Shown: piece by piece, positions 2,781 through 64,000 of the stretch
How the letters are laid out: every line of letters starts with the position of its first letter
How positions within the stretch are numbered: position 1 is the first letter of the stretch
Source of the DNA: Luteolibacter ambystomatis
Lineage (GTDB): Bacteria; Verrucomicrobiota; Verrucomicrobiia; Verrucomicrobiales; Akkermansiaceae
Reading direction: 5' to 3'
NCBI RefSeq assembly: GCF_018137965.1
Contig: NZ_CP073100.1
Location: 2,987,754 to 3,051,753, forward strand
Length of the DNA stretch: 64,000 nt
The notes under the pieces: model-generated
The model's database searches: none
What the model was told of the DNA's origin: nothing
Seen by the model: only the letters and a program-made list of their open reading frames with translations
Translations under genes and position numbers: made by a program

Positions 2781-3212
2781 TTACCGCTCCACCAGCGATG
2801 CGCAGGTGTGGATGATGTCATCCGCCCGGTTCGCCGTATCGGCTCCGCGGCTGCGCAGGATCACCCCGGAAGCGGGCGTTGCTTCATACTCATAGGCCCG
2901 ACCCCAGGGATCGGTGGGCAGCGACTGCCGCAGATGTGTCCCATCCGGCATTTCTTCCAACAGCGCGGCGAGGCCTTTTTCCTTCGCAGGAGCATGGCCC
3001 GTGCGATGAAAGTATTCATCCAGATCGCCGTCCAACTGGCGCAGGTCGAACTCCGCCCGCTCGCGCAGCGAACTCCGGAACACCACGTGGTGGAGGCCCC
3101 ACACCATGCCGCCGGTCACCAGAAAAACCACCGAAGCGAACCCTAGAAAGCCAGTCCCCGGCCACAACCGCGGGTGGCCGTTCCAACGCATCAAAAACGG
3201 GAACGTTCTCAT
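2781..3212 (-). CDS. GspG-like (pseudopilin C-terminal-domain) membrane protein
   Basis: A 143-residue protein with one membrane segment (about residues 20-40, GFASVVFLVTGGMVWGL) followed by a periplasmic domain. That domain ends in a segment matching the C-terminal core of type II secretion major pseudopilins (TDPWGRAYEYEA, then SRGADTANRADDI), the region that forms the calcium-binding loop in GspG. It lacks the prepilin-peptidase cleavage site (G-FTLIE) expected before the hydrophobic helix, so it is not a standard pseudopilin. The frame extends upstream to 3449, but that would overlap the divergent phosphatase start; the ATG at 3212 is therefore chosen. No other secretion genes lie nearby. 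Function unknown. Confidence 0.6.
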   Translation of the reverse strand: MRTFPFLMRWNGHPRLWPGTGFLGFASVVFLVTGGMVWGLHHVVFRSSLRERAEFDLRQLDGDLDEYFHRTGHAPAKEKGLAALLEEMPDGTHLRQSLPTDPWGRAYEYEATPASGVILRSRGADTANRADDIIHTCASLVER

Positions 3213-5110: not shown

Positions 5111-6118
5111 ATGGAACACGCCTCCGAAACCGAAGTTGTCAACGCGGGCAAGCACCTCCGCTCGCTGGTGAACGGCCTCAATCAAGTGCTGTTCGGTCAG
5201 GAGGAACTGATCGATCTGGTCCTTACCGGCATTCTGGCCCGCGGCCACATCCTGCTGGAAGGTCTGCCCGGCCTCGGCAAGACGGAGCTGGTCAAGGGTC
5301 TCTCAAAGCTGGTGCGCCTCGGCACGAAGCGCGTCCAATTCACCCCGGACCTGCTGCCGGGTGACATCACCGGCAACCCGGTGCTGCAAGAGACCAACGG
5401 CCGCCGCGAGTTCGTGTTCCAGCCGGGTCCGCTCTTCACCAACATCGTGCTGGCGGATGAAATCAACCGCGCCTCGCCGAAAACCCAATCCGCCTTGCTG
5501 GAAGCGATGCAGGAACGCCGCGTGACCGTGCTGGGCGAGACCCACACACTGCCAAAGCCGTTCTTCGTGCTCGCCACCCAGAACCCGATCGAGCTGGAAG
5601 GCACCTACCCTCTGCCGGAAGCTCAGCTCGACCGCTTCCTGTTCAAGCTGGAGGTCACCCGTAACAACGTTGACACCCTCCAGCGCATCGTCTCGAACCG
5701 TGAGATCGGCACCGAACCGGTGGTGGAGCCGGTGATGGATGCCGCCACCTTGGAGGAACTGCTGGAACTCGTGCGCCGCATTTATCTGCCGGACGTGGTG
5801 GCGAACTACATTGCCCGCCTCGTGGATGCCACCCATCCCGGCCAGTCTTCCGCAGCGCATGGCATCCGCTACGGAGCCAGCCCGCGTGCGGCGCTTGCAC
5901 TGGCATCCGCCGCCCGCGCGCGCGCGCTGATGAACGAGCGCGTCAATGGCAGCTTCGAGGATGTGAAAGCGGTGGCCCCCGCCGTGCTGCGCCATCGCAT
6001 CGTGCTCGACTACAATGCGCGGGTGGAAGGACTGACCACGAACGACCTGGTGCGCTCGCTGCTGGAGGAAGTGCCGTTCCAATCCACCTCCACACCTCGG
6101 ACCCTCAAGCCGGCCTGA
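5111..6118 (+). CDS. MoxR-type AAA+ ATPase
   Basis: A 335-residue MoxR ATPase, a chaperone-like AAA+ protein thought to help mature or insert metal cofactors into partner proteins with VWA domains. The Walker A GLPGLGKT is at residues 51-58 and the Walker B/MIDAS-facing NIVLADEINR at 111-120. They are followed by the diagnostic SPKTQSALLEAMQERRVT and the LATQNPIELEGTYPLPEAQLDRF stretch. It opens the seven-gene operon running to 15793, which also contains DUF58 and VWA proteins, the classic MoxR partners. Confidence 0.95.
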   Translation: MEHASETEVVNAGKHLRSLVNGLNQVLFGQEELIDLVLTGILARGHILLEGLPGLGKTELVKGLSKLVRLGTKRVQFTPDLLPGDITGNPVLQETNGRREFVFQPGPLFTNIVLADEINRASPKTQSALLEAMQERRVTVLGETHTLPKPFFVLATQNPIELEGTYPLPEAQLDRFLFKLEVTRNNVDTLQRIVSNREIGTEPVVEPVMDAATLEELLELVRRIYLPDVVANYIARLVDATHPGQSSAAHGIRYGASPRAALALASAARARALMNERVNGSFEDVKAVAPAVLRHRIVLDYNARVEGLTTNDLVRSLLEEVPFQSTSTPRTLKPA

Positions 6119-37333: not shown

Positions 37334-37660
37334 GATCATTGCTCTATTGCTATTACCCAAGAAAACGGACGGAGCGGCAGGAGCGACCGCTGGAACCGTG
37401 CTTTTCCACAAATTCCCGGGCCACCGTGGAAACGGCGGCGGCAACACTCGGATGGAGCGGCAAATTCATCGGGAAATCGGAAAAGACGGCAAAAGGAACG
37501 TTGTGGATATGGCACGGCAAAGTGCCGCCAGCAACCCCCCAGCTTCGGAAAATCTGCGAATCAAAGTTGAACAGATGGCGAATACCGGAATTTGCCGGAA
37601 ATTATTTCGCGCGATTGGCAAAAGACGTGTTTTCCGCCACATCCCGTTCGTCGCCCCGCC
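37334..37660. other. Non-coding stretch upstream of the DUF3142 gene
   Basis: No convincing gene or RNA was seen here. Open frames cover it, but they have no family likeness and overlap each other. It presumably holds the promoter of the lipoprotein operon that starts at 37661. Confidence 0.4.
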
Positions 37661-38869
37661 GTGTCGCTCCGCTGGCTGATTTTCCTGCTGTTTCCCCTGA
37701 CCGCCTGCCGGAAGGAAGCCCCGCGCCCGGCCCCAGCCATCGAAGCTTACGTGTGGCAATCGCCGTCCCGCCCCGAAGTCGCCGCCGCCATACAGCAGTC
37801 ACACGGTACGGTCGCCACCCTCCACGTCCGGGCCGCGGAGATGCGTTGGACCGGCCAAGCGTTCGAAACCAACCGCGCTGTAACCAGCCGCCTGCCGAAA
37901 GCCGGCTGCGGACTGGTGCTGCGGATCGGTGCCTCCGCCTCACGGCTCGAATGGACGCCGGATCAGGTGGCTCCCGTCGCGGCGGTGGTTCGGGAGCTGG
38001 CCGCCCTCCAGCCGGGGGAAATCCAGTGCGACTACGATTGCCCGCAATCACGCCTTGATCGCTACGGCCGGCTGCTGGACGCACTGCAAAAGGAAGCGGG
38101 CGCGATTCCGCTGGTGCCCACCACACTGCCATCCTGGCTGGATGAACCCGCCTTCAAAACACTGGTGGCGAAGCGACCCGGCTATGTGCTCCAGGTTCAT
38201 TCGCTGCAACTTCCAAAACAGGCCGGCCAACCGGTGGTGATCTTCGATCCCGCCACCGCCCGTTCGGCTGCAAAAAAAGCCGCGTCTCTTGGTATACCCT
38301 TCCGGATCGCCATGGCCACCTACGGTTGCGAGGTCTGGTTCGGCTCCGATGGCAAGGTGATGGAAGTGATTTCCGAAGACGCCGCCCCATTGAACAAAAC
38401 ACCCGCCAGCCGCGCTTTCACCCTGGCGGACCCGAACGAAAGCGCGCGGCTGATCCGTGAATGGAACACCTCGCCACCCGCCGGTCTGCAAGCCGTGATC
38501 TGGTATCGTCTGCCCGTGGAAGGTGATCGCCGCAACTGGCCATGGGTGACCTTCCAGCATGTCGTCCGAGGCGAAGCAGCGGCTCCCAACCTCGTGCTCG
38601 AAAGCACCGATCACGACGGCACACACGACCTGCACATCGTGAACCGCGGCGATTTTCCCGTTCCACTTCCCACCACCGCCATCATCACCACTCCTGTCAT
38701 CTCCGCAGACGGAGCAGGAGCCTATCGCTTGGAAAAACACGATGATGGCTTGCACTACCTTCGCCGCGAAGGCATCTGGCCGTGGCTCGATCCCGGGAAA
38801 AAAATTCCCGCAGGTTGGTTGAGAACCCGCGAGCCGGTTTCACGTATTGATTGGCACTTCACTCCATGA
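37661..38869 (+). CDS. DUF3142 family lipoprotein
   Basis: 402 residues from GTG 37661, which gives a lipoprotein signal peptide ending LTAC with Cys 16 as the lipidation site. The DUF3142 domain is recognised by EIQCDYDCPQSRLDRYGRLLDALQ. Related folds are sugar- or wall-active, but the role of the family is unknown. Its stop overlaps the next gene's ATG (ATGA at 38866), so the two are co-translated. The 3' end of this gene recurs as a fossil at 41238. Confidence 0.82.
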   Translation: MSLRWLIFLLFPLTACRKEAPRPAPAIEAYVWQSPSRPEVAAAIQQSHGTVATLHVRAAEMRWTGQAFETNRAVTSRLPKAGCGLVLRIGASASRLEWTPDQVAPVAAVVRELAALQPGEIQCDYDCPQSRLDRYGRLLDALQKEAGAIPLVPTTLPSWLDEPAFKTLVAKRPGYVLQVHSLQLPKQAGQPVVIFDPATARSAAKKAASLGIPFRIAMATYGCEVWFGSDGKVMEVISEDAAPLNKTPASRAFTLADPNESARLIREWNTSPPAGLQAVIWYRLPVEGDRRNWPWVTFQHVVRGEAAAPNLVLESTDHDGTHDLHIVNRGDFPVPLPTTAIITTPVISADGAGAYRLEKHDDGLHYLRREGIWPWLDPGKKIPAGWLRTREPVSRIDWHFTP

Positions 38870-39020
38870 ACCTCCGTGTTCTTCCCGGGCTGCTCGCCTG
38901 GACCTTCGTCTCCCCCTTCGCGGCCGCTTGCGGGCCGTTCTTTCCGGACACCGTTCTCGACAAGCCACAAGCCGCGCTCGATGTCCCGCCGGTATCCTAT
39001 CTCGCAGAGCTGCACCGGAT
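38847..39020 (+). repeat. Direct repeat, copy 1 (174 bp)
   Basis: Matches 41238-41411 at 173 of 174 positions; the only difference is C at 38904 against T at 41295. It spans the last 23 bases of the DUF3142 gene and the first 155 bases of the following gene (the two overlap by four bases). Confidence 0.95.
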
Positions 39021-41223
39021 GGCGGGCACGCAAATGCCGGAAACGGACGAGATGTCACGCTCCGGTGAAGCATCAACTGCTCTGGCGCAGATCCCCGCGG
39101 AAGTCGCGGAACTGACACGATACTGGACGGAAAAGAATGCGGACCCTGCGGACATCGAGAGACTCACCTTCCACTATCAGGATGTCAGGCGGTCAATGTT
39201 GGGTGGACTGAATTACACCGCGGCAAGGCGGTTTCCGACGCAGGCGGAATCCATGCGCTCTTTGCCGGAACGTCCTCTCAACAACGAATACCCCGGTGAA
39301 GTAGCCGACTACGTGGAAGCGGCCCGACTTTATGGGCTCGGCAAGAACGACGAGGCCCGCGCTCTCTGGAAGGCGATATTGGACCGCCCCATCAGTGAAC
39401 GACGTCTGCGATGCGTATGGGCGGCGTGGATGCTCGCGCAAACCGCCCCGGATGATGACGAATGCCTGACATGGTACGAGCGGGTGGACAAGGAAGCCAC
39501 CGCAGGAGGTACGGATGCCATCGGGCTGGGTCCTGCCTCCATGAGCAAACGGGCGAGGTTGTCATCCGATCCTATCGCCAAGCTTCATCTGTATTTCGAG
39601 GGATTCCGTCGGGGCGATGCCGTGGACGTATGGGAACTCAGGCGTTGCTCCCGCGAGCTCCTGCGGTCCGCATCTGCAGAAGATCTCTCCAGAGCCGCAG
39701 CCGATTCCTGGGTGCGCCAACTGGTTCACCTGGACCTGCAAGCCAACCTGGACGGCCCTCGGGACGAGCCATCTTCCAAACCGGATCCTTCCTTGATCCC
39801 GCAGGCGTGGCTGGATGCGGTCAGACAACATGCGCAAACACCTCTTCCGGATGGAGCAAGACTGGCTTGGGCGCTCTATTCTCTGGGCCGCTTCGATGAA
39901 GCCCATCAGTGGCTGGATCTCTCGGTCAAAGAGTCTCCGCTGTCCCTTTGGCTGGAAGCAAAGTTCGATCTCCGGGCCGGCAAGTTGGACAAGGCCCGGG
40001 ACCATCTGGGCGCGGCCATCCGGATACTGGAGGCGCAGAAGAATTGGGACCCGGCGAATCCCCCTCAGCGGGGCTATTGGGCGGGAAACCTGCGGGAACG
40101 CTTTCAGAAAACCCAAGGCCGCCTTCTGGCGGATGCCGGTTTGGTGGCACTCGGGCGGGAAGACTACCCATCTGCTCTCCAATTTCTCAGCCAAGGCGGT
40201 TATGCCGCAGATGCCGCCTACGTCGCGGAGCATCTCCTTTCGACCTCCTCTTTATTGAAGCATGTCAAAACGGTGGCACCCCGGTTCTCGGACAAGCCTG
40301 CAGGCAAGGGGGACTATTTCGACTGCTACTTCGATAGCACCCCTCCGGAAGTCGATCCGGCCACCTGTCTGGAACCCAACCGGGTCGGCGTTTACCGGTG
40401 GCTCAAAAATCCGGACAACCGGCTCCGCTATGAACTGGCGCGTCGGCTCGCCCGCGAAGACCGGCTCAACGAAGCGGTCCCATTCATGCCACCGCAGTTG
40501 GACAAGGTCTTCCGCCACTACGCCGCATTGGATCGCGCCGCGAAATCGGGAAGGTACAAGGGCTCGGTTCTCGCTGCGATCCTGTGGAGGCAGGCGAAGA
40601 TCCACCGCTGGTGGGGTGCGCAGCTTTTCTCCACCGATAGTTTCCCAGATAATGGTATCTACGAATGGGACTTCCCCTTTCCGGAGCTCCAGGACATGCG
40701 AACATTTCGCAACGGCTGGGCGATGGAGTGGTCCGGTGGCTCCCGCTATCAAGGAATCGCCCGGTTTGTGGCGGCCCGCACCGAACAGGAGAAAGCCGTC
40801 CCTCTGGTCCGGGCCGAGGAAATCCGGCGCCTCTCGATTCCGCGGCTGAAATACGACCACCGCTATCACTATCGCTCGGTGGCTGCGGATCTGGCTTGGA
40901 ACGCGGCCAAATTGCTACCCAACGACGATCCGCAACTCGCCTTGCTCTACAATACAGCCGGTCGATGGGTGGAAAATTCCAATCCCGACATGGCGGACCG
41001 TTTTTACGAAACCATGCTGAAACGGTGTCCCAACACGGAGATTGCCGGGACAGCTATCACGCGTCGCTGGTTTGTCCGGGATGTGCCCCCCCTCAAGGAA
41101 TTGTCCGGCCTTCCCGCGAAACTCATGCCCAAACCTTTCGAAAACGGGTGGAAACCCAGGGATCCCAATGAGAACTTGGAACCCGAGCCAACCGATGTCA
41201 CCGATCCAGATGAGAACCGGTGA
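38866..41223 (+). CDS. CGPFFP-motif large exported protein, copy 1
   Basis: 785 residues from the ATG at 38866. A signal sequence ends SPFAAAC at Cys 22, followed by GPFFPDTVLDKP; this is a probable lipoprotein N-terminus. The body is helical with TPR/solenoid-like units (VADYVEAARLYGLGKNDEARALWKAIL, ARLAWALYSLGRFDEAHQWLDLS, KFDLRAGKLDKARDHLGAAIRIL). Such helix-turn-helix scaffolds hold partner proteins; no enzyme motif is visible. It ends in a Pro/Glu/Asp-rich tail. A paralogue follows directly. Function unknown. Confidence 0.75.
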   Translation: MNLRVLPGLLAWTFVSPFAAACGPFFPDTVLDKPQAALDVPPVSYLAELHRMAGTQMPETDEMSRSGEASTALAQIPAEVAELTRYWTEKNADPADIERLTFHYQDVRRSMLGGLNYTAARRFPTQAESMRSLPERPLNNEYPGEVADYVEAARLYGLGKNDEARALWKAILDRPISERRLRCVWAAWMLAQTAPDDDECLTWYERVDKEATAGGTDAIGLGPASMSKRARLSSDPIAKLHLYFEGFRRGDAVDVWELRRCSRELLRSASAEDLSRAAADSWVRQLVHLDLQANLDGPRDEPSSKPDPSLIPQAWLDAVRQHAQTPLPDGARLAWALYSLGRFDEAHQWLDLSVKESPLSLWLEAKFDLRAGKLDKARDHLGAAIRILEAQKNWDPANPPQRGYWAGNLRERFQKTQGRLLADAGLVALGREDYPSALQFLSQGGYAADAAYVAEHLLSTSSLLKHVKTVAPRFSDKPAGKGDYFDCYFDSTPPEVDPATCLEPNRVGVYRWLKNPDNRLRYELARRLAREDRLNEAVPFMPPQLDKVFRHYAALDRAAKSGRYKGSVLAAILWRQAKIHRWWGAQLFSTDSFPDNGIYEWDFPFPELQDMRTFRNGWAMEWSGGSRYQGIARFVAARTEQEKAVPLVRAEEIRRLSIPRLKYDHRYHYRSVAADLAWNAAKLLPNDDPQLALLYNTAGRWVENSNPDMADRFYETMLKRCPNTEIAGTAITRRWFVRDVPPLKELSGLPAKLMPKPFENGWKPRDPNENLEPEPTDVTDPDENR

Positions 41224-41237
41224 TCTGATCCCACCTC

Positions 41238-41411
41238 TTGATTGGCACTTCACTCCATGAACCTCCGTGTTCTTCCCGGGCTGCTCGCCTGGACTTTCGT
41301 CTCCCCCTTCGCGGCCGCTTGCGGGCCGTTCTTTCCGGACACCGTTCTCGACAAGCCACAAGCCGCGCTCGATGTCCCGCCGGTATCCTATCTCGCAGAG
41401 CTGCACCGGAT
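41238..41411 (+). repeat. Direct repeat, copy 2 (174 bp)
   Basis: Copy of 38847-39020 lying 2391 bases downstream. The first 23 bases still read as the tail of the DUF3142 protein (DWHFTP and stop) though that gene is not present here, so this is a duplication fossil. Confidence 0.95.
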
Positions 41412-43530
41412 CGCCGGGACGCCGATGCCAACGGAACGCTTCGTTCTCGGCGAGACCCCTTTTCTGGCTCAGATCCCGCTGGAAGTGGCTCAGTTGCGGA
41501 TGGGATGGCGGGAAGCCGGAGTGCCGGAGCAAGTCATCGAAGATCGCATCAAACGCTACACGGAGGTACGACAGGTGCTGCTGACCGGTCTGGAAACTGT
41601 GGGACGGTCAGGCTTTCCAATCGGCGCAGCGGCTGCGGGAGCCCTGCCGCTCAAACCACTGGAGCAGGATTTCCCGCGCGACGTGGCGGACTACGTGGAA
41701 GGAGCTCGCCTGCATGCCATCGGTCGTACGGAGGAGGCGCGTGCGCTGTGGAAGGGCATACTGGAACGCCCTGCGGCGGAAAAGCGCCTGCGCGGCATCT
41801 GGGCGGCGTGGATGCTGGCGAAGACCTCCGGCGATCCCGATGAATGCTTGCGCTGGTACGAGCGGGTGGACCGCGAGGAACAGGAAGGCGCGATCGATCT
41901 TCTGAACCTGGCCGCCGCCGCGAAATCCTGGCGGGCATCGGCGGTGGGAAATCCGATCGAAAGCCTGCGCCTGTTCTACGATGCCTTTCGTAGTGGCAAG
42001 GAGGGTGCCGCCCTCGATATCCGCAATATCTCCGCCGCCATTCTGGAAGAGAAGAATGACACGAGTCTCAAGGAAGCTGCGGCCGATCCGGTGCTGCGGC
42101 GACTTCTGAATCTCCATCTCCAGGCCCTGCTCGATGGTCCCGGACAAAACGACCGCATCGAGGAAGAAGCGGAACCCGGCGCGGAGCAGGCATCCCTCCT
42201 GCCTCCGAATGAATGGCTGGCCGCGCTCGCGGCGACGGCACCATTGCCTCTGGAGGATGGTTCGCGGCTGGCGTGGGCATTGTATGCCGCCGGACGCTAC
42301 GATGAGGCCGCCCATTGGCTGACGATCTCAAGAAAAGACGAACCGCTCGCCCGGTGGCTTCAGGCGAAGTTCGACCTGCGCGCCGGCAATCTCGAAGCCG
42401 CCCGCCGGAATCTGGCCGCCGCGGAGCAGGTCTGGTCAATGGCAGCGGATTGGAAGCCGGGCAATCCCTATTTGGAGTCGATGTGGATGGATGCGGGTAC
42501 GGAACGCCTCCAAGGCTTCCAAGGCCGTTTGCTCGCCGATGCCGGCATGGTGGCGCTCGCCTCCGCGGACGTGTCCGCCGCAACCGTGTCACTGGTGGAA
42601 GGCGGCTACGATGAAGATGCCGCTTATCTGGCGGAGCGGGTGCTTTCCACGGACGAGCTGCTGAAGCTGGTGCGTGCCAAAGCACCCGCATGGGAGCCGG
42701 CGCCGGACCGGCCACAGTCCGAGGAGGAAGACTACCGGACGGATGATTCGGATGTCGTAGATCCCGCCACCTGCCTGGAGGGTGACATGATCGGAAACTA
42801 CTCCTGGCACATGACCGCGAAGAACCGGCTCCGCTATGAACTGGCACGGCGGTTGGGACGCGAAGGCCGTTTGGATGAGGCTGCGGAGTTCATGCCCCCG
42901 TCATTGAAACGGCTTTTCGACCACTATCGCTCCCTCCATGCCGCCCGAACCTCGGGACGATATTCAGGAGAAGCGTTGGCCGCGATCACCTGGCGTGAGG
43001 CACGCCTGCACCGCTCCTGGGGGGCGGAACTTTTCTCCACCGACACTTTCCCCGATGGCGGGATCCATGGCTGGAGCTTCGAAGCGGAAGATCTGTCGGC
43101 AATCCGCTCCCACCGTCATGGCTGGACCGTGGAGTGGAACGAGCAGCTTGAGATCAAGGACGCGGAGGTGGAGGCCGATCGCGCGGTGCCGCTGGTCCTG
43201 GAGAGCGAGATCGAGCGCGTGAAACGGCATCCGCTGCCGAATACCAACCGCTTTCACTACCGCTACGTCGCCGCGGATCTGGCCATGAAGGCCGCGGAAT
43301 CCCTGCCGGACAATCATCCCCAGCTCGCCCCCCTCTACAACACCGCCGGCCAGTGGCTCGCCGCCCGCAATCCCCAGGCCGCCGATCCGCTCTACCAAGC
43401 GATGGTGAAGCGCTGCAAGGACACGCCGATGGGACAAGCAGCCGACAAGAAACGGTGGTTCATCGGGAATACGGAGGCGTTGCAGGATCTGCCGGGTTTG
43501 CCTGATGAACTGATGCCGAAAAAACCGTAG
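41257..43530 (+). CDS. CGPFFP-motif large exported protein, copy 2
   Basis: 757 residues from the ATG at 41257. It is a full-length paralogue of the preceding protein: the same signal and Cys 22 region, then similar repeat units (VADYVEGARLHAIGRTEEARALW, SRLAWALYAAGRYDEAAHWLT) and the same FHYRYVAADLAMKAAESLPDN near the end. The first 51 or so residues are identical to copy 1, while the rest has clearly diverged. It lacks the acidic tail of copy 1. The gene starts 33 bases after the first stop, so both are probably one transcript with the DUF3142 gene. Confidence 0.75.
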   Translation: MNLRVLPGLLAWTFVSPFAAACGPFFPDTVLDKPQAALDVPPVSYLAELHRIAGTPMPTERFVLGETPFLAQIPLEVAQLRMGWREAGVPEQVIEDRIKRYTEVRQVLLTGLETVGRSGFPIGAAAAGALPLKPLEQDFPRDVADYVEGARLHAIGRTEEARALWKGILERPAAEKRLRGIWAAWMLAKTSGDPDECLRWYERVDREEQEGAIDLLNLAAAAKSWRASAVGNPIESLRLFYDAFRSGKEGAALDIRNISAAILEEKNDTSLKEAAADPVLRRLLNLHLQALLDGPGQNDRIEEEAEPGAEQASLLPPNEWLAALAATAPLPLEDGSRLAWALYAAGRYDEAAHWLTISRKDEPLARWLQAKFDLRAGNLEAARRNLAAAEQVWSMAADWKPGNPYLESMWMDAGTERLQGFQGRLLADAGMVALASADVSAATVSLVEGGYDEDAAYLAERVLSTDELLKLVRAKAPAWEPAPDRPQSEEEDYRTDDSDVVDPATCLEGDMIGNYSWHMTAKNRLRYELARRLGREGRLDEAAEFMPPSLKRLFDHYRSLHAARTSGRYSGEALAAITWREARLHRSWGAELFSTDTFPDGGIHGWSFEAEDLSAIRSHRHGWTVEWNEQLEIKDAEVEADRAVPLVLESEIERVKRHPLPNTNRFHYRYVAADLAMKAAESLPDNHPQLAPLYNTAGQWLAARNPQAADPLYQAMVKRCKDTPMGQAADKKRWFIGNTEALQDLPGLPDELMPKKP

Positions 43531-51063: not shown

Positions 51064-51178
51064 AAAAGGAAGCGGCCCGACCGATAAACCTCAGGAAAAA
51101 CCCATTAAACCTGGAGGCTCTTCGGCCGGACCGCCTTGTGTGTCGCGACACAGGACTATACGCAGATCCGGGACCACT
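51064..51178 (-). repeat. Structured direct repeat, copy 1
   Basis: About 110 bp; the first 75 bases match copy 2 (366 bp downstream) almost exactly. Arms at 51072-51084 and 51122-51134 pair fully, with two G-U wobbles, in minus-strand RNA, while the plus strand would have two mismatches. Confidence 0.75.
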
Positions 51179-51429: not shown

Positions 51430-51544
51430 AAAAAGAAGCGGCCCGACCGATAAACCTCAGGAAAAACCCAATAAACCTGGAGGCTCTTCGGTCGGACCGC
51501 CTTGGTCGTCGCGACGCCGGGGCTATAGGCAGAGACCGGCCTGC
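51430..51544 (-). repeat. Structured direct repeat, copy 2
   Basis: Copy of 51064-51178. Its arms 51438-51450 and 51488-51500 pair with one G-U wobble in minus-strand RNA, and the minus strand then reads cttcttttt, as in a terminator. Confidence 0.75.
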
Positions 51545-60188: not shown

Positions 60189-62117
60189 TCATCGTGCCGT
60201 GAGAATCACGGCGAATCCGTTGCCCGCTGCGACCTCGCGTTTGAGGACCGTCTTTGCATTCACCTCCAGCTTGTCGATGGCCACGTGAGTGAGAGTGGAC
60301 ACGGCAGGATCATCGCGAAACACCTCCGCCTGATACGTCTTCGCCGGATCAAGGAAAGCCAGCGGCACCTCGAACGTGCGTGCGGAGTTTCCGTTCAATC
60401 CACCCACAAACCAGACGTCCCCCTTGCGACGCGCGATGGTGACATGCGTGTCCGGATGGCCGTCCAGCACCCGCGTTTCATCCCAGGTCGTTGGCAGGCG
60501 ATCAAAGAACGAAAGCTCCGGCACTTCCTGGATCACGGGTTTGGTCGGCCCTGCCTGACCCACGCCGGGTGAACCCATCGGACGATCATACCAGTAAAGC
60601 ATCTGCCACGGGCTGAAGATGCATACGGCCTTCGCAAGCTGCGAGGCATGCGAACCCATCTTCTCCGTGACACGTGGCGCGAAGTAGCAGTTCGTCTGAT
60701 CCGCCGCTCCGGCGAGACAGCGGGTGAAGATCGTCTTGAGCACGTCTATGTTCGGCACGCTTTCCTCATCGCCGCGGATGCCTTCCTGAGTGAGAAGATT
60801 GGGCCACGCGCGCGAGACGCCGGTGGGGCGGTATTCATCGTGGATGTCCACCATCAGCTTGTGCTCCGCGCACTTCGCCACCGCCTTGTGAAGCCATGCC
60901 GTATCACCCTGCGGTCCGACCTTGACGAAGCCGAACTTGATGCCCGCCGCGCCCCACGATTGGTAGAGCGGCGCGATCTCATCGATCTGCCGGGTCAGCG
61001 CGATCTGGTTCACATAGAGGATCACGCCGATGCCCTTTTGCTTTCCGTAAGCGATCACCATCTGGAGATCGAGCGGACCGGGAGAGCGCGCGGGATCGAG
61101 ATCCACCTTCGTGGCATCGGATGAAGCGGAGCCTTCCGGTCCGTACCATCCCGCATCAAAGAGGATGTGCTGCAAACCGTGCGCCGCGGCGAAATCGATG
61201 CAGGCCTTGCCGCCCTGCGTGGTGAGCGACGCCTCGCGGATCACCTTGCCGGGACGAATCCATGAGATGTCGGCGATCTTGGAAGGCTCGTTCAAATTCA
61301 AGATGAACCCGCTGTCCTGCAACAGCGCCGCCGGGCTGCCCCCCACCCGCACGTAACGCCACGGGCTCGTGAAGGAATCCGTGAAAGCAACGCCGCCCGC
61401 CAACTTGGCGCGCAACGTCACCGCGCCATCGGACACAAACTTCATCCGCGCTCCATCGACCAATCCGGCTTCGCCAATGGCAGCAAAGAGATCCGGTGCG
61501 AGCTGGGCGAACAGCGGTCGCTCAACCTGCCCCTTTACCTCGGAGATCAACTGCCTGGTGATCGGGCCCTGTGCGGTCGTGGAGGTCCACACCTGCGTAG
61601 CTTCCGGCAAAGTGAATGAGGTTGCTTCATCCGTCACGGTGCCATCCCCCGCCAAAAGATATCGCCATGCGACTCCCGTGTCATACGCACGCACCTGAAG
61701 CTTCACCTCAGGCAACCCTGCTTCGGTGGGAATGATCGGCAGCGTTTCCTCACGGCAGCGATCCTGTACGGTAGAGGCTTCGCCGAAAGAGTTCGACCAG
61801 GTCGTATCGATGTCCTTCGCATCCATCTTTCCAAGCGTGCCGCGCGCGGCCACAACTCCGACACCGCGCAACTCCAACCCGAGGTCGCCATGATTCACCA
61901 CCGTGCGGCCACCGGAGGTCAGACCGTAAACGAGCTCTCCCGTGGTCTCGTTCTTCTCCAGCGTGAAGACCGATCTCCCACCCGGACTTCTGACGGTGCG
62001 CAGGGTCGCGTAATCGGCCGCCGATGCGGAAGCGGCGGAAAGCAGCAGCATGCAAAACAAGTTCCAGATCATGACGAATGGCTTGGACCCTGCATGCCAT
62101 TTCATGCGGGAGTCCAT
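60189..62117 (-). CDS. Secreted GH97-family glycosidase
   Basis: 642 residues with a signal peptide (MIWNLFCMLLLSAASASA). GH97 family features are in order: N-terminal beta-sandwich, catalytic barrel with FDAGWYG (320-326), GIKFGFVKVGPQGD (392-405) and HDEYRPTG (426-433), then TQEGIRGDE (443-451) and the C-terminal sheet. GIKFGFV has Gly where retaining GH97 members carry the Asp nucleophile, so the inverting type is more likely; the exact sugar is unknown. A purine-rich aggaaggggg precedes the ATG at 62117. It is a close paralogue of the next gene upstream. Confidence 0.92.
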   Translation of the reverse strand: MDSRMKWHAGSKPFVMIWNLFCMLLLSAASASAADYATLRTVRSPGGRSVFTLEKNETTGELVYGLTSGGRTVVNHGDLGLELRGVGVVAARGTLGKMDAKDIDTTWSNSFGEASTVQDRCREETLPIIPTEAGLPEVKLQVRAYDTGVAWRYLLAGDGTVTDEATSFTLPEATQVWTSTTAQGPITRQLISEVKGQVERPLFAQLAPDLFAAIGEAGLVDGARMKFVSDGAVTLRAKLAGGVAFTDSFTSPWRYVRVGGSPAALLQDSGFILNLNEPSKIADISWIRPGKVIREASLTTQGGKACIDFAAAHGLQHILFDAGWYGPEGSASSDATKVDLDPARSPGPLDLQMVIAYGKQKGIGVILYVNQIALTRQIDEIAPLYQSWGAAGIKFGFVKVGPQGDTAWLHKAVAKCAEHKLMVDIHDEYRPTGVSRAWPNLLTQEGIRGDEESVPNIDVLKTIFTRCLAGAADQTNCYFAPRVTEKMGSHASQLAKAVCIFSPWQMLYWYDRPMGSPGVGQAGPTKPVIQEVPELSFFDRLPTTWDETRVLDGHPDTHVTIARRKGDVWFVGGLNGNSARTFEVPLAFLDPAKTYQAEVFRDDPAVSTLTHVAIDKLEVNAKTVLKREVAAGNGFAVILTAR

Positions 62118-62164: not shown

Positions 62165-64000
62165 TCATGGCACCGCGATGCGGAAAAACATCTTCCCGGC
62201 CGGTGGTTGCTCCAAGGACACATCCACGGTCGAGACTCCATTGGCATCGCGCGCACCCTCGTTGAACGCAGCACCGAATTGTCCGCTCACGAGAGACTGC
62301 CAATCGTCCAGCGTGGTCGAATACTGGACCTGCGGTTGCAGGAAAGGTCCTGTAGCGCTCAATCGGTAGGAGTATCTCAGACCGTTCACATCCATGGTGA
62401 GTGTCGGCAGTTTCGTGCTGTCATCGCGCACCAGCGGATTCGTGCCCAACACGCATTCGATCGCATTCGGAATGCCATCGCCATCCGGATCATCATCGGT
62501 TCCGGCGGAAGCGATCGGAATGCCTTTGAGAGCCACCCATTGTCCATAGGGGTCCGCAGGGAAATACTCCACGATGAGCTCCGGGTGCCAATCCGCATTC
62601 GTATGATCACTGCTGGCGAATTGCCACTGGGGCGCGCCTGTATAGGGAGCGCCATAGGTCAACAGCAACCCTGCGTTGCCACTGCCACCGCCCGCGATCC
62701 ATGAATCAACGATCTTCGTGAGCGAGTCGCGGGTGGACACTCCGCTGGGTGCTGACAACGGGATTTCAATCCATGCGCCCACCGGTGCGATGGATGAATC
62801 GAGGGTGGCGGACCCGAGCTGGGCATAGCAATCGGTGGCCGTGCGTGCGCCCGCGGTTCCTCCCAGCCAGGCCCCGGCAGTGGACGCGGCATGGTTCCAG
62901 CACGACGTGCCGGACACCGCGGCCCCGTTCGCACTTCCCTCAACCCATCCGGAATTTCCTTCCCGCTCCAACTGGACACCCACCTGACAACTGGCGGATA
63001 GATCCGTCACCGCCGCCACGCGCAGGCGGAGTGTCATCGATTTGATGGAAGCATACCTTCCTCCCAGCACGGACAGATCGAACCTCGTCAATCCGGAGCG
63101 CACCTTGCCGCTGCCGAGCACGCCAACCAGGAGCGTGTCGCGTCCACCGTAGTTGTTGCCGGGAGTCTCCTGAACCAAGGAGGTATCCTGCACGCCCTGA
63201 TAGTTGCTCAGGTGGACGAGACCGTCCGAGGAACCGGGAGACGTCCCTTTCTTGAAGATCATCGAACTGAGAGGCGGAGTCGGTGGTACCACTTCCCGCA
63301 GCCCGTTTTCGGTGAGGATCACGGTGAAGCCATTCCCCGCTGCGACACTCCGAACCAGCGTGGCGCCCGCATCGACATCGAGCATGTCGATCGCCACCTG
63401 CGTGGTGGTCGCGACGGAGCCATCATCCCGGAACACCTCCGCACGATACGCCTTGGTGGAATCGAGAAAGGTCAGTGGCACTTGGAACGTACGCGCCGTA
63501 TTGCCATTCAGACCCGCGAGAAACCATGTCGTCCCCTTGCGCCGTGCCACCGTCACGTGTGTGTCCGGATGCCCATCGAGAATCCGGCTTTCATCCCAGG
63601 TCGTCGGCAGGCGATCGAAGAACGATAGTTCCGGCACCTCCTGCAATACGGACACTCCTCCTCCGGCACCCGCACTCCCGGGCGAACCAGCCGGACGGTC
63701 ATACCAGTAGAGCGTTTGCCACGGACTGAAGATGCAAACGGACTTCGCCAGTTGGGACGCATGCGAACCCATCGTGGCCACCCGGCTGGCAAAATAGCAG
63801 TTGGTCTGGTCCGATGCCCCTGCGAGACAGCGGGTGAAGAGACTCTTGAGCGCGTCCGCGTTCTTCGGGGTTTCTTCATCACCACGGATACCTTCCTGGG
63901 TGAGAAGATTCGGCCACGTGCGCGACACGCCGGTGGGGCGGTATTCGTCGTGGATGTCCACAATGAGGTGATGGTCCGCGCATTTCGCCACCGCGTTGTG
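62165..64000 (-). CDS. Secreted GH97-family glycosidase with DNRLRE and calcium-repeat tail (partial)
   Basis: The N-terminal part lies beyond the right edge; at least 611 residues are visible. The barrel end repeats the neighbour's motifs (AVAKCADHHLIVDIHDEYRPTGVSRTWPNLLTQEGIRGDEE). Unlike the neighbour it then adds a DNRLRE/CBM96-like beta-sandwich (NNYGGRDTLLVGVLGSGKVRSGLTRFD). A calcium-binding repeat (DDDPDGDGIPNAIE) and a C-terminal domain of about 80 residues follow, of a kind common in exported verrucomicrobial proteins. The two genes are 47 bases apart and look like a tandem duplication followed by domain gain or loss. Confidence 0.9.
   Translation of the reverse strand, partial: HNAVAKCADHHLIVDIHDEYRPTGVSRTWPNLLTQEGIRGDEETPKNADALKSLFTRCLAGASDQTNCYFASRVATMGSHASQLAKSVCIFSPWQTLYWYDRPAGSPGSAGAGGGVSVLQEVPELSFFDRLPTTWDESRILDGHPDTHVTVARRKGTTWFLAGLNGNTARTFQVPLTFLDSTKAYRAEVFRDDGSVATTTQVAIDMLDVDAGATLVRSVAAGNGFTVILTENGLREVVPPTPPLSSMIFKKGTSPGSSDGLVHLSNYQGVQDTSLVQETPGNNYGGRDTLLVGVLGSGKVRSGLTRFDLSVLGGRYASIKSMTLRLRVAAVTDLSASCQVGVQLEREGNSGWVEGSANGAAVSGTSCWNHAASTAGAWLGGTAGARTATDCYAQLGSATLDSSIAPVGAWIEIPLSAPSGVSTRDSLTKIVDSWIAGGGSGNAGLLLTYGAPYTGAPQWQFASSDHTNADWHPELIVEYFPADPYGQWVALKGIPIASAGTDDDPDGDGIPNAIECVLGTNPLVRDDSTKLPTLTMDVNGLRYSYRLSATGPFLQPQVQYSTTLDDWQSLVSGQFGAAFNEGARDANGVSTVDVSLEQPPAGKMFFRIAVP

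Follow-up and report, generated by a model that had tools for sequence, protein, structure and literature searches.

A pair of adjacent paralogous genes, labelled here X1 and X2, lies directly downstream of a DUF3142 gene in the genome of Luteolibacter ambystomatis (G000; one contig, 5.32 Mb). The analysed stretch of this genome, 64 kb in full length, is referred to below as the window. The 5' ends of X1 and X2 are nearly identical, the bodies of the two genes are highly diverged, and a copy of the end of the DUF3142 gene, hereafter the fossil, precedes X2. The same gene pair is present in a relative (G050). Together, these relationships lead us to propose, with a probability of about 0.88, that an old tandem duplication took a fragment of the neighbouring gene with it, and that the 5' end was later homogenised by gene conversion in the G000 lineage. 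The key features are the following, in window coordinates unless stated otherwise.

37592..38869, + strand: DUF3142 gene (PF11340, E 3.4e-26 in Pfam); its first start codon is unsettled, and its TGA at 38867-38869 overlaps the ATG of X1
38819..38869, + strand: tail of the DUF3142 gene, source of the fossil; the final 16 sense codons and the stop, LRTREPVSRIDWHFTP-stop
38866-41223, + strand: X1, 785 aa, with a CGPFF motif, weak matches to TPR and, by eye, a signal-like N terminus
38847-39020, + strand: block copy 1; 19 nucleotides (nt) of the DUF3142 tail before the ATG, 51 complete X1 codons and 2 nt
41210-41260, + strand: fossil of the DUF3142 end; a 16-codon open frame from the ATG at 41210 to the TGA at 41258-41260, with the stop overlapping the X2 ATG
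41210..41237, + strand: decayed part of the fossil, 28 nt, beyond the near-identical block
41238-41411, + strand: block copy 2, the putative conversion tract, at the 5' end of X2
41257-43530, + strand: X2, 757 aa, paralogue of X1; predicted to be mostly helical, with a mean predicted local distance difference test (pLDDT) score of 67
5363-5413 of locus L035 in G050: fossil before X2 of G050; decayed, in register, open for exactly 16 codons following an in-frame stop

The match that an earlier note on this DNA had reported is exact: at 173 of 174 positions, 38847-39020 is identical to 41238-41411, the offset being 2391 throughout, a figure that gives the present spacing and not necessarily the length of the originally duplicated unit. 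The sole mismatch, C/T at 38904, is synonymous (ACC/ACT, Thr). A longer alignment, of 38820-39038 with 41211-41429, has 93% identity over 219 nt. Each copy of the block starts 19 nt 5' of the ATG of its gene, and before X2 there is no DUF3142 gene. Nucleotide identity in the bodies of X1 and X2 is only 55%, and the proteins are 50% identical over their full length and 47.6% identical (331/696) from codon 52 onward. That the block results from an assembly artefact, through a chimeric join or a copied stretch in the G000 assembly, is highly improbable: the genome is a single contig, the flanks of both copies are diverged, one base differs between the copies, and the pair is found independently in G050.

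Synonymous divergence (dS, by the NG86 method) differs sharply between the block and the rest of the genes. The comparison inside and outside the block that the earlier note had proposed yields 0.03 (1.0 of 40.7 synonymous sites) and 1.68, respectively, for X1 and X2 of G000, in support of the suggestion, made in the same note, of recent gene conversion. The corresponding values are 0.90 (21.2 of 40.3 sites differ) and 1.27 for the two paralogues of G050, 0.64 (17.5 of 40.5) and 1.24 for the X2 orthologues, and 0.94 and 1.96 for the X1 orthologues; between orthologues, synonymous differences in the block affect 43-54% of the sites. At the synonymous sites of the block, the G000 pair is distinct from both the G050 pair (Fisher P 1.5e-7) and the X2 orthologues (8.7e-6). 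The block is somewhat conserved in all comparisons, yet nearly identical only within G000.

These values bear on the alternative in which purifying selection on the signal peptide, the CGPFFP segment and the start region alone keeps the 5' ends identical, with no transfer between the copies. The segment is indeed conserved at the protein level, dS between orthologues is lower in the block than in the body, and the DUF3142/X1 junction is the most conserved window between G000 and G050 (see below). However, selection would be expected to keep the G050 copies alike too, and they differ in the block at 21.2 of 40.3 synonymous sites, against 1 of 40.7 within G000, as do the X2 orthologues at 17.5 of 40.5; furthermore, 19 nt of the identical stretch lie outside the X2 coding sequence and are decayed in G050. 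Selection alone is therefore very unlikely. The strong selection that the earlier note had offered as an explanation for the signal and CGPFFP segment fails as the sole cause. Conservation at the DNA level is present and, between G000 and G050, peaks at the DUF3142/X1 junction.

Two observations are in line with gene conversion. The identity of the paralogues is far higher in the tract than in the rest, synonymous sites included, and the change is non-reciprocal, with recipient sequence kept at both flanks: the tract in X2 is bordered by X2's own decayed fossil on the left and by the X2-type body on the right. Intragenic gene conversion explains the block, which selection alone does not, and homologous recombination of the RecA type is the probable agent. 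A one-step unequal crossover is rejected by reasoning, given that such an event alters the copy number and cannot leave X2 sequence on both sides of the tract. The age of the transfer, estimated from the single substitution since, is ~4-6% of the divergence that separates the X2 orthologues in the block (0.025 vs 0.432 per site uncorrected; 0.03 vs 0.64 corrected), with a very wide error.

Comparison with relatives separates the age of the duplication from that of the homogenisation. A search of 260 genomes of the family with X1 yields matches in 10 of them at E 1e-60 or better. Copy number at the locus, for which the earlier note had suggested a survey, is two in G000 and G050 only, where the X copies are adjacent; the other eight genomes have one match each, three of these (G012, G024 and G289) being cut by contig ends, and the contig of G001 ending <1 kb past X. 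In G050, DUF3142, X1 and X2 follow one another in this order, and beyond them lies the reversed gene that is also found downstream of X2 in the window; the downstream regions of the two genomes are 85% identical over 2282 aligned nucleotide positions. A DUF3142-like gene lies directly 5' of the single X match in G001, G002, G012, G110, G203 and G192 (the DUF3142 identity was checked with Pfam in the window gene only; the genes of the relatives are called DUF3142-like by eye or from pairwise alignment), so that DUF3142-X is likely to be the ancestral arrangement.

From codon 52 onward, protein identity is 58.2% between the X1 orthologues and 68.5% between the X2 orthologues, compared with 46.3-48.8% for the four X1-X2 pairs. 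For the body from codon 63 on, with six sequences, the orthologous topology is ahead of its three rivals by at least 164.9 log units. The informative sites that favour the orthologous, paralogous and cross groupings number 206, 52 and 45 in the body and 0, 8 and 0 in the block, a contrast with a Fisher P of 4.6e-6 when sites are treated as independent. The pairing of X1 with X1 and of X2 with X2 in the body places the duplication before the split of G000 and G050. The tandem duplication recognised in the earlier note is thus borne out, as an old event common to G050, with only the homogenisation being recent. The approximately unbiased (AU) tests included six sequences (both copies of G000 and G050, G001 and G002) and the trees nine; G012, G024 and G289 were excluded from trees and distances because of the contig-end cuts. 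The X start codons in the relatives were chosen by the analyst, and in G203 the later ATG was used for the overlap count described below and the earlier one, 12 nt upstream, for the site patterns.

The least probable of the alternatives considered is that the whole duplication is recent and that X1 and X2 evolved unusually fast outside the block. The fossil end and the block do appear fresh in G000, but G050 has the pair, each of the two genes groups with its orthologue, and dS outside the block is 1.68. Among the points that weigh against our own account, the block alone does not reject the orthologous tree (deltaL 4.0 worse, p-AU 0.079), 51 codons being too few, and the genomes found with the X1-X2 pair are only two. 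G002 groups with X1 at weak support (Shimodaira-Hasegawa-like approximate likelihood-ratio test, SH-aLRT, 28; ultrafast bootstrap, UFBoot, 54), and a loss of X2 in G002 is possible.

The fossil is what remains of the DUF3142 end in front of X2. The DUF3142 gene terminates in ...DWHFTP-TGA at 38867-38869, with the stop overlapping the X1 ATG (ATGA), and the same DWHFTP-TGA reading upstream of X2 ends at 41258-41260, outside any DUF3142 gene, as the earlier note had recognised. The fossil is longer than was described there, extending past the near-identical block to a total of 16 codons, of which the left 28 nt are decayed. The 27 nt left of the block match the DUF3142 tail in register at 18/27 positions, where shuffles average 6.9 and 0 of 20,000 score as high. 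In G050, the best non-self ungapped match of the DUF3142 tail (47 nt) in the 10-kb locus is in register before X2, at 26/47. Both results have a counterweight: one unrelated place in the window reaches 19/27, above the 18/27 of the fossil, and the G050 match leads the next places (24 and 23) by just 2 positions. Left of the block, the fossils of G000 and G050 agree with one another at 13/27 positions and with their own DUF3142 tails at 18/27 and 16/27, respectively; being less alike each other than their own tails, they encode a peptide without sign of constraint. Beyond ~48 nt upstream, no clear DUF3142 likeness remains in either genome in alignments judged by eye, and this point is either where the duplication was joined or where decay has erased the likeness. 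Given the in-register matches in both genomes, the fossil most likely dates from the old duplication and decayed in both lineages, its last 19 nt having been renewed in G000 by conversion.

The earlier note held that the fossil fixes the direction of the duplication, which is the case for the left end only (X1 to X2) and not for the whole exchange. The left 19 nt of the block are DUF3142 codons, and the DUF3142 end of G050 has identical letters there, so that the left part went from X1 to X2. Over codons 1-17, the G000 copies share the G050 X1 state at 6 discriminating sites and the X2 state at 1. In codons 18-51, they share the X2 state at 23 sites and the X1 state at 3, the shared state being missing in the outgroups G001 and G002 at 6 and 2 sites, respectively. 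Over these codons the G000 copies are 87% identical in nucleotide sequence to G050 X2 and 68% identical to G050 X1, which speaks against X1 as the only donor. A simple one-way transfer from X1 to X2 is therefore insufficient, unless G050 X1 evolved fast in this part. A fast change of this kind is hinted at by the distances: in codons 18-51, G050 X1 is farther than G050 X2 from 5 of 5 outgroups and farther than the G000 copies from 4 of 5. The resemblance suggests X2 as the source of the right part (codons 18-51), whether earlier or in the same event, and the transfer may have run in both directions or in two stages; the maximum-likelihood gap between the two directions for the right part is just 0.6 log units.

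The closeness of codons 18-51 to G050 X2 rather than X1 would also fit a third source, from which the block entered both copies by horizontal transfer, or entered one and was then copied. The segment has matches in 5 of the 73 genomes of the genus, and outside G000 nothing is closer than the two G050 copies, at 84-85%; a search of the whole G000 genome (5.32 Mb) with the 219-nt stretch found no third copy at E <= 0.001. On these grounds we give a third source very little credence and retain conversion between X1 and X2 as the preferred explanation.

The junction of DUF3142 with X1 is itself unusually conserved. At 38789-38904 (the last 26 DUF3142 codons and the first 13 of X1), it has the top nucleotide identity, 95%, of 1164 overlapping 39-codon windows in the comparison of G000 with G050. 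Codons for the same residue are identical there in 85% of the cases vs a median of 50%, rank 10 of 1164. The junction ranks 13th of 1102 and 17th of 1080 when G002 is compared with G000 and G050, respectively, 30th of 1082 for G000-G001 and 215th of 1082 for G001-G002; the signal fades with distance. An ATGA overlap between the DUF3142-like frame and X occurs in 8 of 9 genomes (G000, G050, G001, G002, G012, G110, G203 and G192). The exception is G289, where the X start is unsettled, with one ATG 7 nt past the DUF3142-like frame and another overlapping it by ~47 nt; G024, without the X 5' end, is outside this count. The overlap and the conservation of the junction fit translational coupling, and the conservation hints that the junction is a translation-coupling element under DNA-level constraint.

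By extension, the fossil might have been kept as a 16-codon mini-cistron that brings ribosomes to X2, replacing DUF3142 as the coupling partner, with conversion renewing its functional end; on balance, we regard this as unlikely. Both fossils are open, have an ATG where DUF3142 has TTG, keep their 48-nt length without an indel and end in ATGA at X2, so that an open frame of at least 16 codons with an ATG overlaps X2 in G000 and G050 as in a coupled pair. The frame in G000 is open for 79 codons, with three more in-frame ATGs upstream of 41210 (four in total), and the frame in G050 has a stop immediately 5' of its ATG and comprises 16 codons. From the X1 stop to the X2 start there are 33 nt in G000 and 69 nt in G050. 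In experiments described in PMC10666635, on Escherichia coli and Haloferax and hence in other phyla than that of Luteolibacter, a distance of 38 nt lowered reinitiation by 80-90% for two E. coli gene pairs and abolished it for a third, a distance of 22-23 nt abolished it or nearly so in Haloferax, and the final 15 nt of the upstream gene were enough for reinitiation. By comparison with these distances, the X1-X2 spacing suggests that coupling to X2 may run through the fossil. Under a neutral-decay simulation, the frame stays open in 60% (G050-like) and 74% (G000-like) of the cases, so that openness alone is no evidence for a mini-cistron. In the same simulation, an ATG at codon 1 arises in about 3.4% of the cases, and the chance of no indel is 1.4-43% for assumed indel/substitution ratios of 0.1-0.02. 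The ATG of the fossil was noticed before testing and is an after-the-fact choice. Weighing against the mini-cistron are the expected openness, the unconstrained peptide, the post hoc site and the presence of only two genomes.

Judged by eye, the N terminus of X1 and that of X2 are signal-like, and the C-G-P-F-F motif is invariant across five aligned X sequences. TPR matches to both proteins in Pfam are weak, with none reaching the curated cut-off; a search of NCBIfam with X1 and X2 gives no match near the cut-off, and a sequence search of the PDB gives no match at E <= 1. An AlphaFold2 model of X2, built from five sequences, is mostly helical and of moderate confidence (mean pLDDT 67, predicted template modelling score 0.48). 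From the N terminus and the predicted helices, X1 and X2 would be secreted or lipid-anchored TPR-type scaffolds. A distant X homologue, with 31-32% identity, lies at 4.02 Mb in the G000 genome.

The window contains other repeats. A second adjacent paralogous pair, on the minus strand, occupies 60189-62117 and 62165-63991, the latter gene running off the window end; both genes presumably belong with the GH97-type glycoside hydrolases, which they resemble. The direct repeats of this pair, 60256-60890 and 63369-64000, have 73-84% nucleotide identity at a spacing of 3110-3113. In addition, a 91-nt direct repeat (51064-51154 and 51430-51520, 366 nt apart) has 91% identity.

Taken together, the most likely history of the locus is as follows. 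In the ancestral DUF3142-X pair, the stop of the first gene would have overlapped the start of the second (ATGA). X would have been duplicated in tandem, together with the last DUF3142 codons, before the G000 and G050 lineages parted, after which the protein identity of X1 and X2 fell to ~48% and the extra copy of the DUF3142 end decayed. At a later time, the G000 lineage would have undergone a recombination of the two copies that overwrote ~174 bp of the 5' ends, from 19 nt before the start to codon 51, with the left part passing from X1 to X2 and codons 18-51 possibly stemming from X2, either beforehand or at the same time. One synonymous change would have followed after the copies became identical. 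Of these elements, the near-identity of the block in G000 and its absence from G050, the fossil and the order of ages are shown; the recombination agent and the direction in the right half are inferred.

Gene conversion between bacterial paralogues is known from the tufA and tufB genes of Salmonella, where it is intrachromosomal (PMC5485169), and from the RF1 and RF2 genes (PMC4530459). As in these cases, X1 and X2 share a short tract that is identical between paralogues of one genome, with tract and body discordant. Unlike tufA and tufB, which are nearly identical throughout, X1 and X2 are only 55% identical in nucleotide sequence in the body, they are nearly identical at the 5' end alone, and a piece of a neighbouring gene is part of the tract. 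Coupling by termination-reinitiation is known for gene pairs with an ATGA overlap (PMC10666635, PMC6728339). The locus resembles such pairs in the 4-nt overlap of the DUF3142-like stop with the X start in 8 of 9 genomes and in the similar overlap of the fossil stop with X2 in both tandem genomes; it differs from them in that the upstream partner of X2 is a 16-codon remnant and no gene, and coupling is putative here. Among the matches listed for literature that links gene conversion to duplication, tandem duplication, concerted evolution or translational coupling, there is no comparable case.

Overall, the locus is a good example of a known phenomenon, with the possible reuse of a gene scrap for coupling as its notable part. 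It offers a clean case, as one relative suffices to tell apart a duplication, the decay of a neighbour's end and a conversion tract of later origin. If the fossil does act as a mini-cistron, a coupling-dependent duplicate would bring its own coupling element, which would provide a route for tandem operon duplicates to stay expressed.

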